A DNA stretch of 20,110 nt from a virus. The stretch lies in IMG/VR virus record IMGVR_UViG_3300032293_000302, positions 1 to 20,110 of that record, one strand, 5' to 3'. Position numbers and translations under genes: made by a program. Position 1 is the stretch's first letter. Each line of letters starts with the position of its first letter. Positions 6,878-14,490 of this stretch are shown here, piece by piece. The notes under the pieces are model-generated. The model saw nothing but the letters and a program-made list of their open reading frames with translations. It searched no databases and was not told where the DNA came from.

Positions 6878-7453
6878 TCAGCAGTTATTGCAGTAGGGGT
6901 CATAGGGCCAAGGGCGGTCCAAGCCAGCACCACGGCGCAGGGTTCTTGCATCCAAGGCCATCCCTGTGTTGTAGTTGGTGCCGGTGGGGTAGATGGTGTC
7001 CAAAGCCGATGGCGGGGAGTTAAAGAGCGGGTAATTTGCCTTCTGCTCCATGAGGTAGCGGGTAATCCTTTCGGAGTACCACTCCGCATCATTCTTCACT
7101 TTGTCGGTGAGGCGGGTAATCTCGTCCATGGACATTTGGGAACTTTCCTCGCTGGTTCTGCGGACCATTCCTTTGTTCATGTACTTGAACGCCAAGACCA
7201 TCGGGAGTTCGTAGTAGAGCCATTGCACCATAGCGGGTTGGATGTAGTCCTCCAGCAGGGTGGTGTTCAATGCCGTGGTCGTACCGCTCACTACCTGCCC
7301 GACCATTTCCGAGTACAGGGCAGACCCGACTATCGGCTGAATCCGCATCTCCTGCACCTTCACGATGGTAGGCCGAATTTGGGTAAACGAAACATTCTCG
7401 TTTATGACCGAGTTGTCCAGCAGGGTTTGTTCGCTGATAAATAGTGCCTTCAT
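6878..7453 (-). CDS. Head-tail connector (head completion) protein
   Basis: This is a 191-residue protein with an ATGA overlap with the portal stop. It begins MKALFISEQTLLDNSVINEN and contains VQEMRIQPIVGSALYSEMV (33-51), LEDYIQPAMVQWLYYELPMV (67-86), a helix around the SMDEITRLTDKVKNDAEWYS region, and RITRYLMEQK (129-138). The mostly helical fold and these patterns resemble the gp6-like/DUF6712-type connectors of Bacteroidota phages, which attach as a ring below the portal. The C-terminal 40 residues are loop-rich and end in CNNC. Position directly after the portal agrees with the role. Confidence 0.7.
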   Translation of the reverse strand: MKALFISEQTLLDNSVINENVSFTQIRPTIVKVQEMRIQPIVGSALYSEMVGQVVSGTTTALNTTLLEDYIQPAMVQWLYYELPMVLAFKYMNKGMVRRTSEESSQMSMDEITRLTDKVKNDAEWYSERITRYLMEQKANYPLFNSPPSALDTIYPTGTNYNTGMALDARTLRRGAGLDRPWPYDPYCNNC

Positions 7454-9570
7454 GCTTTTGAAATTTTGTTGCCCTTACGGATGACCAACTGCTGCTCCCA
7501 AATGTGCCTGCATTGGGGGCGGTTCACTCCGCTGGCCGTGTGATACCAACCGCCACGGCGGTTCCAAACGCTATATCCCATGATGTTACTGATGCCGTTG
7601 ATGTCGTCCCTTGTGTACACCTTCCCTTGGTCAGCCAAGTCCAACATGACCTTGCAGAACTCACGGCTGGTGCGTTTGTCCTTGTTGCTGAATCCAGCGG
7701 CCCAAGAGTATTTGTACCTCACTTCCAGCACGGGTTCGGCCACTTCCTTGATGTTTTTGGGCAAGCCTTGCTCGGCGATTTGGTCCACCGCCCTTGCGAT
7801 GGGGTAACGGTCTTTTGTAATCAAGTACGCCACCCGCTTTGCGACCTTGGCTTTGCTGACCCCGAACTCCTTGGCCATTTCTTCCACGGAGGCTTCACGA
7901 TTCTTCTTGCGGTACTTTTCAATTTTCTCGTCAAGTTCCTTTTCTTCCTCCCCAAGTTCAGCGAAGGCTTGACGCACTTGGTCGTCTAAGTCGGCATCAA
8001 AGCGCATTGGCTTGGAATGCATGACAACATAGTCGTCCGAACTGCTCCCAAACTTACTTGCAACCACCTCCAAGACCTTAAATTCCTCGTCCCCCCATCC
8101 GTAATCCTCGGTGTCTTCTTCGCCCCACATAGGCTCGGAAAACGCCTGCTCTTGCACTCCGAGCAGGGTGTTCACTTCTTCGGGGGTCAACCCGAAACCA
8201 GCGGATAGCATCGTGCGGGCCATCTCCAAGGTAATTTTTTCTTGGGCATAGTGGCGGACGATTCGCATGAGGTTTTGGTACTCACGGCCCGACAATTTTT
8301 TGATGTTGTCGTTGCTCATGACTGCAGGCGTTTGCGGAACCTCGTCGGGTTGGGCGTTCGGTCCCACCACATCGGCGGGTTGCTTTTCCAACGCAGGGAG
8401 GCCCGCTTTTTCCCGCAGTTCTTCGGGGGTCATAATGGTGAGCAGGGCTTGTTCACTCAATCGCTCGGTGATGGGTTCCACGGGAATCAGTTCCATCCCT
8501 TCCACGCCGTTGAAGGATCCAAGATAGTTGATCATCCGCTCCACCTTCCGCACTCGGTCGTTCACATAAGTCGCTTTGAATAGTTCGTACGCCTCAACCA
8601 GTTCCTGCCGCCCTCCCAGTTGGCCTTCGGTCTTTACTCCGAATAGCATCGGGTTCACGACACGGTGGCTGATAAAGATTTCTTGCTGCACGGTCTTGTT
8701 GAGAATCTCAAACTGCTTGTCCATATCGGACGGGGTCAACGGTTCCAAGGTGGGAGCCTTTGAAACATCGTCGTTGAAGGTCACCACAAAGCGACCTGCA
8801 TTGTCGGTCCCCGAAAACTTGCGTTTGATTTGACGCTCAATGTCGCCTTGCTCTTCGGGCGTTGGGATTCCGTTGTTGAAGTTTATCAAGTACCCGCCCC
8901 AAAAGTTGTTTTTGAGGTTGTTCACATGGAAGTTGGCAATTTGACAGTCCGCTTCAATATATGCAAGCCCCCCCATGTATTCGGGGAGGGGGTAGGACTT
9001 CACGCCAGCGGCATAGACCCTGTAATAGAACAGTTGCTTACCGATTCGGTTGTCAGCATCAAAGGCGGGGATTTTCTCTACATCCCCGATTTTGGGGTAG
9101 AGTTGGACCATTGCATCGTCGTACCAATCGGCCACTTGGAACATCCGCTCGTCCTTGTCAACACGAATCTTTTCAAAGGGGATATGCTCCATCTTGGCAA
9201 TGGTTCCCATTTTGTTCCATGTGACTGCGACGGCAAACCCGTTGAATAGTTCAAGGTCCAAGACGAGTTTCTCGGTGATGTCGTTCAAGTCGTCATGCTC
9301 GGATAGGCCGTCAAAGAACTTGGCGTAGCGGGCCTGCTGCTCCACGGTCATCTTCTCCCCTGGTTGCCATCCACCGCCCACGATGTAGTTGACCTTCCCG
9401 TTGACGATAGCGTTGTGCTTGCTGCTCCTTCGGTAGTTGTCCAGCAGATAGTAGGGGTACTCGTTGAAAGCCCCGTAGGTGATGTACTTGCCCGCTTTGT
9501 TTTCAAGCATCACGGGGACCTTGTGTTCAATGCCAAGCCATTGGGTGAATGATTGTTTTATAGAACTCAT
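7450..9570 (-). CDS. Portal protein fused to an HTH-like linker and a MuF-like C-terminal domain
   Basis: This is a 706-residue protein. Residues 25-395 follow a portal layout: an N-terminal wing (YNEYPYYLLDNY-like, 34-46; IVNGKVNYIVGGG, 55-67), stem and clip around 205-350 (NFHVNNLKNNFWGG; VQQEIFISHRVVNPMLFGV, 294-312). The portal forms the dodecameric DNA gate of the capsid. Residues 440-545 are charged and helical. Residues 558-583 (REASVEEMAKEFGVSKAKVA) look like a helix-turn-helix. Residues 617-696 (YSWAAGF..., REFCKVML, YTRDDINGIS, YSVWNRRGGWY, CRHIWEQQ) form a conserved C-terminal domain with a Cys/His/Trp ending reminiscent of MuF-type minor head proteins. Both ends are coupled to neighbours by ATGA overlaps. 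The portal identity is more certain than the domain labels of the C-terminal half. Confidence 0.75.
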   Translation of the reverse strand: MSSIKQSFTQWLGIEHKVPVMLENKAGKYITYGAFNEYPYYLLDNYRRSSKHNAIVNGKVNYIVGGGWQPGEKMTVEQQARYAKFFDGLSEHDDLNDITEKLVLDLELFNGFAVAVTWNKMGTIAKMEHIPFEKIRVDKDERMFQVADWYDDAMVQLYPKIGDVEKIPAFDADNRIGKQLFYYRVYAAGVKSYPLPEYMGGLAYIEADCQIANFHVNNLKNNFWGGYLINFNNGIPTPEEQGDIERQIKRKFSGTDNAGRFVVTFNDDVSKAPTLEPLTPSDMDKQFEILNKTVQQEIFISHRVVNPMLFGVKTEGQLGGRQELVEAYELFKATYVNDRVRKVERMINYLGSFNGVEGMELIPVEPITERLSEQALLTIMTPEELREKAGLPALEKQPADVVGPNAQPDEVPQTPAVMSNDNIKKLSGREYQNLMRIVRHYAQEKITLEMARTMLSAGFGLTPEEVNTLLGVQEQAFSEPMWGEEDTEDYGWGDEEFKVLEVVASKFGSSSDDYVVMHSKPMRFDADLDDQVRQAFAELGEEEKELDEKIEKYRKKNREASVEEMAKEFGVSKAKVAKRVAYLITKDRYPIARAVDQIAEQGLPKNIKEVAEPVLEVRYKYSWAAGFSNKDKRTSREFCKVMLDLADQGKVYTRDDINGISNIMGYSVWNRRGGWYHTASGVNRPQCRHIWEQQLVIRKGNKISKA

Positions 9571-10547: not shown

Positions 10548-11624
10548 TCACAATTTGCGCCCGATGCTTCGGTAGAGTTCGGCCCTCCGCTCGGCGGTCT
10601 TGCTGATGTCAAACCGCTCACGGACATCCTTGCTCAACTGCATGGCAAGCCCCTTGGCGTAGTCGGGTTCGTTCACAAACTTGCGGACGGCCTTGTACCA
10701 TGCGTCTTTCTTGCCGTAGGGTATCAGTAGACCGTTGTGGCCGTGGACGATTATGTCGGTGTAGGGGATGGTTTCCGAGGCGATGATAGCCTTGCCCATC
10801 CAGCCTGCTTCAACCACTTTCAGTTCGCTTTTGAGCCTGTTGAACTTCGTGTCCCGGAGCGGTGCGATAGTGGCGTTGATGAAATTATATCCCCCGACAT
10901 AGGAGTAAATGTCAGCGGCTTGGATGCGTCCGTAATTCTTGTTCAATCCCCTGCACGATAGCATCCGCTCGTAGTCATCGTAGACGGGGTTGCCGTCGTT
11001 CCACCCGCCGAGGTAGATTTTGTATCTCCCGTCAAGGGACTTGTCGTGAGCCAGCAGGCCAAACGAATGCTCCACCAAGGCGATGTCCTCCTGATGCTGC
11101 GCCCCACCAAACCAGCCAATCTTGAACAGGTGCGGCTCGGGTTCGGCCGTCGTGTCGGGCAAGTACTGCTGGTAAGCCTCGTATGGTTCGTTGGGGAGGA
11201 TGGTGACGGCCTTGTTGAGCAGGCGAATCTTCTGCGCCAAGTGTTCGGTGGTCGTGGTCACATGGTCAGCCAAGCGGATGTGTTCACGAATCTGCTCGTC
11301 CAACTTGGTGTCCAAATAGTGCCGATACATGATATGCCCCGATTCCAACACCCAGTAGTCGTCAAGGTCCAAGATTACCTTGGCCCCAAACGCCGTGAGA
11401 GCCTCGTAGACCTTCCGAATTTGCTCCAAGGTACCTTGACACCACAAGCGATTGAAAAGCCACACATCGACCGTCTTTAGGTCTTCATCCTTGACATTGG
11501 CGATGTTATCGACGCATACATAATCGAACTCCGTGAAGTTGTCGCCAAGGTAGGCGTTCGGCATCTCCAAGCGGTAGAAGGAACACCCCGTCGGGTGGGC
11601 GTTGTAAACGATGCAAATTCTCAT
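10548..11624 (-). CDS. GT-B fold glycosyltransferase (GT4-like)
   Basis: This is a 358-residue protein. The ATG at 11624 gives a canonical N-terminal strand, MRICIVYNAH; a longer frame from 11708 would place the terminator hairpin inside the coding region. The N-terminal Rossmann half has ILDLDDYW (84-91) and TTTTEHLAQK (123-132). The C-terminal half has KIGWFGGAQHQEDI (168-181), YLGG (204-207) and the nucleotide-sugar region LKVVEAGWMGKAIIASETIP (268-287) followed by HNGLLIPYG (296-304). This is the usual GT4-type order. It would transfer a sugar to an unknown acceptor: virion protein, phage DNA base, or host surface glycan. Its own terminator/promoter context makes it look like an inserted moron gene. 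Confidence 0.8.
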   Translation of the reverse strand: MRICIVYNAHPTGCSFYRLEMPNAYLGDNFTEFDYVCVDNIANVKDEDLKTVDVWLFNRLWCQGTLEQIRKVYEALTAFGAKVILDLDDYWVLESGHIMYRHYLDTKLDEQIREHIRLADHVTTTTEHLAQKIRLLNKAVTILPNEPYEAYQQYLPDTTAEPEPHLFKIGWFGGAQHQEDIALVEHSFGLLAHDKSLDGRYKIYLGGWNDGNPVYDDYERMLSCRGLNKNYGRIQAADIYSYVGGYNFINATIAPLRDTKFNRLKSELKVVEAGWMGKAIIASETIPYTDIIVHGHNGLLIPYGKKDAWYKAVRKFVNEPDYAKGLAMQLSKDVRERFDISKTAERRAELYRSIGRKL

Positions 11625-11627
11625 GCC

Positions 11628-11635
11628 CAAAGGTA
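11628..11635 (-). promoter_or_regulatory. Candidate promoter -7 box TACCTTTG for the glycosyltransferase
   Basis: On the minus strand TACCTTTG matches TAnnTTTG exactly and lies 3 nt before the ATG at 11624, directly after the T-tract of the upstream terminator. It predicts a leaderless or nearly leaderless transcript. The -33 region would fall in the terminator hairpin and shows no clear TTTG. Confidence 0.45.
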
Positions 11636-11636
11636 C

Positions 11637-11668
11637 AAAAAAAAGGGCCACCCCTTGCGAGATGGCCC
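11637..11668 (-). terminator. Rho-independent terminator after the tail-tube gene
   Basis: On the minus strand GGGCCA (11668-11663) pairs with TGGCCC (11650-11645) around a 12-nt loop and is followed by eight T (11644-11637). It lies 48 nt after the tail-tube stop. Confidence 0.75.
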
Positions 11669-11682
11669 AGACCACTAAACCA

Positions 11683-11702
11683 TGCGGGGTATGAGGCCCG
11701 CA
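11683..11702 (-). terminator. Additional hairpin just after the tail-tube stop
   Basis: TGCGGG (11702-11697) and CCCGCA (11688-11683) form a perfect 6-bp stem with an 8-nt loop. It lies between the tail-tube stop and the T-tract terminator. It has no T-tract of its own and may stabilise the 3' end of the message. Confidence 0.4.
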
Positions 11703-11715
11703 GGTCAAAGATACG

Positions 11716-12308: not shown

Positions 12309-13235
12309 TTAGGCCAACTTCCAGTCAACGATGAGGTCAGGGTAAGCAACCTGGACACCAACTTTGAAGGCTGCTTGGAAGCGGACTTCATCGTTGTCCT
12401 GCGAGTACCACAGGGAGAAGTTTTCTTCGTCAGAAAGCAAATCCGTCGCATAGACAAAATTGCCTAAGTAACTGCAAACCAAGCGGTTGTAACCAAGCAA
12501 GCCTGGGACCGCAACCACACGGACATTGGTACCAGGGTAGATGATGTCACCATCGGCCAGCCCTTGCAGGTCAACTTGGTTGTACATGACGCTGGCGTTG
12601 GTGGTGGACTTGAACGCTCCAATCAAGGTGCGGAAAGTGTCCCAACCGCAGAAGATAACCAAGTCGTTGCGGGTCAAGATGGCCTGCGGAATGCGGTTGT
12701 AAATGTTATCAAAAATGCTGATAGCATTGCTTGTGGTGATACCAACGGAGGCAGACACGGCAGCGGTGTTACCCGATACGGTTGAACCCGATGCAGCGTT
12801 CAAGATTGTCAGCAAGCCAGTCACCAGGGTAGAACCCGACCAGATAGCGTTCTCCAACGCTTCAGCGATGCGAAGGGCTTTCTGCTCGGCGAATGCTTGC
12901 TCGAATGGAACACCGTCATAAGTTGAACCAGCGGTCAACTGCGACTGCATCCAATACTGTTCCAGCGAACGAGGGCAAAGAGCCTCTTGAACTTTCATGG
13001 GCGCAACGGTGACATTCCTTTGCGAGAAGGTCGTGGTTCCTGCTGCGGTCCATCCGCAGGAAGTACCCGCAGCAAGAGCAGCATCCGTGTCCATCAAGTT
13101 GAGGGCAGCGGCTGATTTTACACCAACCTGCTTTGTGAACAAGGCGGCGGTGCGGGCCGAGAATACGGCCTTAGTGATGAGCGGCAACCTTTGCTGCTCG
13201 GTGTAAGCGGTTAGAGTTCCAAGAGAAAATGACAT
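12309..13235 (-). CDS. Probable major capsid protein
   Basis: This is a 308-residue protein. It begins MSFSLGTLTAYTEQQRLPLI and has a helical N-arm with TAALFTKQVGVKSAAALNLM. A central block (VAPMKVQEALCPRSLEQYWM, 76-95; LRIAEALENAIWSGS) matches the spine-helix region of Bacteroidota-phage capsid proteins. The C-terminal half (LVIFCGWDTFRTLIGAF; VRVVAVPGLLGYNRLVCSYL; VGVQVAYPDLIVDW) has an A-domain pattern seen in HK97-fold capsid proteins. It is preceded by protease and scaffold genes in the usual order and followed by a strong terminator. The upstream leader TTAACCCCCAAAC resembles the C-rich leaders of the early module. Confidence 0.75.
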   Translation of the reverse strand: MSFSLGTLTAYTEQQRLPLITKAVFSARTAALFTKQVGVKSAAALNLMDTDAALAAGTSCGWTAAGTTTFSQRNVTVAPMKVQEALCPRSLEQYWMQSQLTAGSTYDGVPFEQAFAEQKALRIAEALENAIWSGSTLVTGLLTILNAASGSTVSGNTAAVSASVGITTSNAISIFDNIYNRIPQAILTRNDLVIFCGWDTFRTLIGAFKSTTNASVMYNQVDLQGLADGDIIYPGTNVRVVAVPGLLGYNRLVCSYLGNFVYATDLLSDEENFSLWYSQDNDEVRFQAAFKVGVQVAYPDLIVDWKLA

Positions 13236-13896: not shown

Positions 13897-14490
13897 TTAA
13901 AGGGATTTGTAGGTTGGGTTGATATGTTGCAAAAAGTTGGTCAAATCGTCTGCGAGGCCAGCTAGTGCGACCTCCAGTTCAGTCCCCGTGTTCTTCATGC
14001 CGAATAGTCCCTCCACGGAGAAACCCTTGAAGGCGTGGCGGTTCTCCCACACCTCGTCGTTCTCTACTTTGAACGACCCGAACCAAGAGCCATCGGGGGT
14101 GTCCTCGTAGCCTTTGGGGGCAAGGATGCCCCGCTCGGTGTCGGTGATGTAACTCTCAAACATGAAAACCCCGTCAAGTTCGGCATTGTGGTAAGCGTTC
14201 ACATTGTGCTGGTTCCCTTGCTTGAAATACTTCTGCACGATCTTCCTGATCGTGGCCTTGTCAAATACCACATAGTACTCCCCGTATGTGTCGTCTTTCC
14301 GATAGATGGGCGTGTCTGCCAGCATGAGCGGTCCCGTCAGCACTCGGCGTTCTCCCGTTTCGGCGAATCGTTGCGGGGTCTTGGCGAAGGCTTGGAAGGG
14401 TTTCTCAATAGCAGGCATATCAACGAGGGCCACGAATTGCACGCCTTCGTCCACCTCGTCCACGGTCATTCGGTACACGGGAAGTTCCAT
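13897..14490 (-). CDS. Prohead maturation protease (XkdF-like)
   Basis: This is a 197-residue protein. MELPVYRMTVDEVDEGVQFV is followed by VDMPAIEKPF (23-32), the typical opening of XkdF-like phage serine proteases. GPLMLADTPIYR (53-64) follows, then NQHNVNAYHNAELDGVFMFE (93-112), where H101 (or H95) is a likely catalytic His. The next segments are SWFGSFKVENDEVWE (135-149) and KGFSVEGLFG (155-164), where S158 is the likely nucleophile. These proteases cleave scaffold and capsid during head maturation. The downstream scaffold and capsid genes are its expected substrates. The start at 14490 lies 17 nt beyond the tape-measure stop. Confidence 0.75.
   Translation of the reverse strand: MELPVYRMTVDEVDEGVQFVALVDMPAIEKPFQAFAKTPQRFAETGERRVLTGPLMLADTPIYRKDDTYGEYYVVFDKATIRKIVQKYFKQGNQHNVNAYHNAELDGVFMFESYITDTERGILAPKGYEDTPDGSWFGSFKVENDEVWENRHAFKGFSVEGLFGMKNTGTELEVALAGLADDLTNFLQHINPTYKSL

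Follow-up and report, generated by a model that had tools for sequence, protein, structure and literature searches.

Why does the portal protein of a phage carry a winged helix-turn-helix (wHTH) near its C-terminus, and what may this fold contact in the virion? The question is raised by the window, the whole 20,110-base virus record analysed here, in which an open frame at 7450-9570 on the minus strand encodes P0001, a protein of 706 residues plus stop. A sequence-only reading had described it as an unusually long portal fused to a helix-turn-helix (HTH)-like stretch and a MuF-like C-terminal domain. The portal call was right: the portal profile phrog_33693 matches residues 18-330 with E 1.7e-41. 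The core (residues 18-350; 8521..9519, minus strand) also matches phrog_11226 with E 5.4e-28 and shares 30% identity with the portal of P12024S, and P0001 belongs to the Nonlabens phage P12024 type of portal. The length of 706 residues is confirmed; that it would be unusual among the kin, whose cluster representatives span 395 to 1171 residues, is not.

The neighbours of the gene fit a head module. The next gene downstream (6878..7453, minus strand) encodes a DUF6712 protein (PF20459, E 1.9e-20), which is likely to act as a head-tail connector; this gene order is kept in relatives. Upstream are a probable major capsid protein (12309..13235, minus strand; phrog_11320 E 1e-15, P12024S gene 2 E 2e-11, and a weak match to PF05065 with E 0.05) and an XkdF-type prohead protease (13897..14490, minus strand; PF14550 E 4e-11). 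Amid the head genes there is a group 1 glycosyltransferase gene (10551-11708, minus strand; PF13692 E 1.3e-6). The only plus-strand gene recognised in the window is an amidase (PF01510) at 2239-2808, likely an endolysin.

The P0001 portal belongs to an abundant aquatic phage group: IMG/VR yields at least 599 stretches that match, and the best 80 of them were retained. One scan of genome contigs found no relative there, and the terminase profile PF03237 matches 5 of 12 records. As to the host, our guess by analogy with Nonlabens phage P12024 would be a member of the Bacteroidota.

Between the core and the wHTH the minus-strand gene encodes three segments. A variable linker (residues 390-430; 8281..8403) takes a 53-residue insert in the relatives L071 and L079 and has a dN/dS of 0.115, the highest among the regions measured. 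A helical segment (residues 430-480; 8131..8283; dN/dS 0.026), recognised by eye, resembles the YNGAQI...SALEI segment of other portals, also by eye. The GW...FG...Y segment (residues 490-524; 7999..8103), again seen by eye, has the counterpart GWDD..D..VF..FGE...FE.V in the sister branch (portals of L238 and L242 to L320), matched by eye with only a partial MAFFT alignment.

The wHTH occupies residues 541-603 (7762..7950, minus strand). Its HTH motif, read from the translation as EEMAKEFGVSKAKVAKRVAY, lies at residues 563-582 (7825..7884, minus strand); the earlier reading had placed the stretch at 558-583, and profiles, Pfam, fold and kin all uphold it. The structure prediction proposed there as a check was run on residues 477-706. 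The resulting model (me0a851dedac0) is poor outside the HTH, with a mean pLDDT of 58.8 overall and about 80 on the HTH helices. Predicted helices at 541-556, 562-569 and 573-585 form the three-helix HTH core, and VIA aligns the model with an AsnC-family/Lrp-type HTH with Z 6.8 and rmsd 1.8 over 47 residues. With Foldseek, the same model had no match in the PDB at an E lower than 0.17. The predicted fold at 541-603 is an HTH, and we consider the wHTH of P0001 genuine.

The profiles point to the same place. When P0001 alone is compared with Pfam, its HTH matches are all sub-threshold and cover about residues 553-600, one of them starting at 530. In the relative L238 the MarR family passes the curated cut-off (24.7 versus 24.6 bits), and MarR_2 matches 17 of the 19 wHTH rows at E up to 0.1. 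A profile made from these 19 rows of both branches (A8) finds AsnC/Lrp and MarR structures as its leading PDB matches, from E 1.3e-6. The wHTH is found at the same position in the sister-branch portals, and a profile restricted to that branch matches P0001 at 555-603; the P0001 tail scores 11.2 bits against a maximum of 8.5 in 2000 shuffles, while in the set of 83 portals the E is only 0.0096. With this profile 15 of 18 branch rows reach E 1e-3, and the three of the P0001 group are weaker (worst 0.025).

How is the wHTH distributed in the family? A wHTH profile, built from rows already labelled HTH by their C-terminal GGW motif, finds 18/18 cluster representatives of the branch and 0/65 of the others. 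Since 65 of 83 representatives are without it, the wHTH is not needed for portal work as such. In a tree built on the portal core (first 360 residues; 82 of 86 tail clusters plus P0001, the dropped rows being startless or shorter than 400 residues), which bears a long-branch warning, the wHTH label changes once (100/100). In 600 pairs drawn from 76 sequences the dN/dS is 0.089 for the wHTH, 0.054 for the C-terminal domain and 0.032 for the portal core; on these estimates, the wHTH is under purifying selection.

The C-terminal Cys/His domain follows at residues 611-706 (7453..7740, minus strand). It bears YSVWNRRGGWY at 666-676 and CRHIWEQQ at 687-694, and positions 437-514 of phrog_33693 match it with E 2.1e-4. 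All 63 rows of its alignment A6 share an invariant Y, R, F, C, G, C and H, and 50 of them match phrog_33693 at E up to 0.1. The predicted fold of a relative's domain is confident (pLDDT 87.9). That this domain shares one open frame with the portal holds true, although as a fusion it is nothing particular to P0001: the domain lies inside the portal frame in 293 of 297 portals read to the stop, a count that leaves out 3'-cut portals, contains many near copies and was made with a profile derived from 63 of the relatives counted. The C-terminal domain is therefore a regular component of the portals in this family, and the wHTH is the real addition.

The departures from this arrangement are few. 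In L143 and L147 the Cys/His domain is on a separate frame just downstream of the portal; in L143 the portal frame ends at 2537, overlapping the next one, which is open from 2518. By eye, the L143 portal ends in a JAB-like sequence and its separate Cys/His frame has ART-like sequence, a natural split of the fusion. The L135 and L083 portals are missing the domain, L135 having a 421-residue family portal at 1367-2629 followed by another small frame, and in L246 the domain match is within the portal's own frame. A fusion of the domain with the XkdF protease was also considered because structure rows in BFVD carry the XkdF label. We set it aside as unproven: the domain occurs once per record in 20 of 20 records, and at the loci read it lies outside the portal frame only in L143 and L147.

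Is this domain a MuF domain? The earlier reading was correct about the motifs and their conservation, but the likeness to MuF found no support in Pfam or hhalign. PF04233 gives no match at E up to 1 in any of 20 records, and PF06152 none at E up to 10 in those 20; when the 63 rows of the domain were compared with Pfam at E up to 1, MuF was also absent from the matches. Profile comparison by hhalign with 8 MuF rows does not support a relation. With 88 MuF rows, of PF04233 type only, the score is 8.6, which is below the mean of 40 column shuffles (10.3) and below the reversed profile (13.4). On the sequence tests, we do not assign the domain to MuF. In structure space, when the domain was searched against BFVD with Foldseek, every row below E 0.001 was labelled portal or XkdF or had no name, and 'minor capsid protein' appeared in just two rows, at E 3.3 and 4.3. 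With VIA nothing reached Z 2 or more for a relative's domain among 22 PDB chains aligned. These results do not show the fold of the domain to be new, nor to be different.

The domain might still be a true MuF that has diverged far, and P0001 a portal-MuF fusion with an inserted wHTH. MuF rows and A6 rows share the order R-x-x-[H/C] ... C-x-[C/H], the gene placing is MuF-like (fused to the portal, or directly after it in L143/L147), and ADP-ribosyltransferase cargo occurs in the family. Portal-MuF fusions are described in Microbacterium phages (clusters EA3, EA5, EA8 and EB; PMC7302621), and the Porphyromonas phage009a portal combines Portal_Mu, MuF and a nuclease-like domain (PF06074, PF04233, PF18810). 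Against these stand the Pfam and hhalign results above, and we regard such a distant MuF origin as rather unlikely. It can be reconciled with a contact between the wHTH and DNA.

The linker of these portals accepts other domains too. An ART-PolyVal (ADP-ribosyltransferase) domain is present in the portal genes of L138 (residues 426-663) and L141 (residues 821-926), and the ART domains of the family portals lie either in the linker or beyond the C-terminal domain. A GRGGT/WGGdAG-type domain recurs in the linkers of L133, L159, L186, L213 and L228; it has no Pfam match in the four scanned (L133, L186, L213 and L228). DUF3721 appears sub-threshold among the linker inserts. Portals of this kind may thus be a loading dock for cargo packaged in the head. 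Effector domains fused to a portal or to MuF have been described (PMC9503650; PMC5576092).

Such variety of inserts would suit a wHTH that is itself cargo, delivered or passive, at an insertion-prone linker and without a role in the head. The GRGGT-type insert, which comes and goes on the tree, changes 6 times on the core topology that has a single change for the wHTH. The wHTH is, besides, retained in all 18 branch representatives and under purifying selection, and we consider cargo an improbable explanation. What, then, does the wHTH contact? In P0001 the recognition helix carries a net charge of +4, residues 545-605 carry +4 and residues 606-706 carry +8, within a protein of -16 overall. 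In the 15 rows of the sister branch the wHTH ranges from -1 to -9 and its recognition helix from -3 to +1. By charge, DNA binding is therefore no kept property of the wHTH, and contact with a protein becomes nearly as likely as contact with DNA. The wHTH could be a protein-interaction module that, in assembly, docks the portal to the scaffold, the capsid or some other protein of the head and does not bind DNA. It is a fold frequently used for protein contacts, and the near-neutral or acidic recognition helices in 15/15 sister rows, along with the acidic wHTH, speak for docking; the +4 helix in the group of P0001 itself speaks against it. We regard this as a serious, if tentative, competitor.

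Another thought is a role of the wHTH in recognising the packaging site, by which it would assume part of the work of the small terminase, since HTH folds are frequent in small terminases. However, portal C-termini face the capsid interior, the terminase docks outside, and most relatives are without the wHTH. This makes a packaging-site role very improbable.

We favour, with a probability of about 40%, the reading in which wHTHs tethered to the portal would contact packaged DNA at the inner mouth of the channel, much as may be the case for SPP1 gp7. Like that of other portals, the C-terminal region of P0001 would be inside the capsid, with about twelve units of wHTH and end domain arranged around the inner channel mouth. 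There the wHTH, along with the basic end domain, would contact DNA packaged near the portal, either the last-packaged end or the DNA held at the channel, and the end domain would act like a minor head protein tethered to the portal. According to work on SPP1, gp7 is bound by the portal, targeted into the procapsid and supports infection; its DNA binding appears there in the title of a cited paper (PMC6316719). By this analogy the tethered wHTH, together with the basic end domain, could keep hold of DNA near the channel or guide it, and the contact may help to hold or release the packaged DNA, as the separate, portal-bound gp7 does. It is more doubtful that a widespread branch of aquatic phages carries in the portal ring itself a wHTH that recognises DNA, with about twelve tethered heads gripping or sensing the genome end in packaging and release.

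Portals are usually regarded as channels and docking rings. Here a fold usual in gene regulators immediately precedes the conserved Cys/His end domain, and its retention across a large phage branch would make it testable whether portal subunits hold or sense the end of the packaged DNA. In the open-licence literature searched, mostly by listings, no description of a wHTH in a portal was found; portal-MuF fusions are already known.

How does P0001 compare with known systems? With the winged helices of Lrp/AsnC and MarR its wHTH shares the fold and the profile match; unlike those free regulators, the portal wHTH is embedded in a virion protein and, within the sister branch, acidic. The portals of the Nonlabens (Persicivirga) phages P12024S and P12024L are alike in the core (30%) and have the same C-terminal Cys/His domain with 34% identity, and their gene neighbourhood is shared in part with the window. 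However, they have 560 residues and are without the wHTH.

The Microbacterium and Porphyromonas phage009a portals, like P0001, are single proteins that join a portal to a further head domain. In the passages of PMC7302621 on the former a wHTH goes unmentioned, and none is among the Pfam matches of the latter. SPP1 gp7 and Mu gpF differ from the P0001 end domain in being encoded by a separate gene, and the MuF profiles and rows compared, gp7 itself being outside this comparison, show no sequence relation to it. Nevertheless, gp7 and gpF are likewise head proteins bound to the portal or encoded beside it, and the MuF family likewise has effector fusions; with the P0001 family, MuF proteins also share the order of the Arg, His and Cys positions given above.
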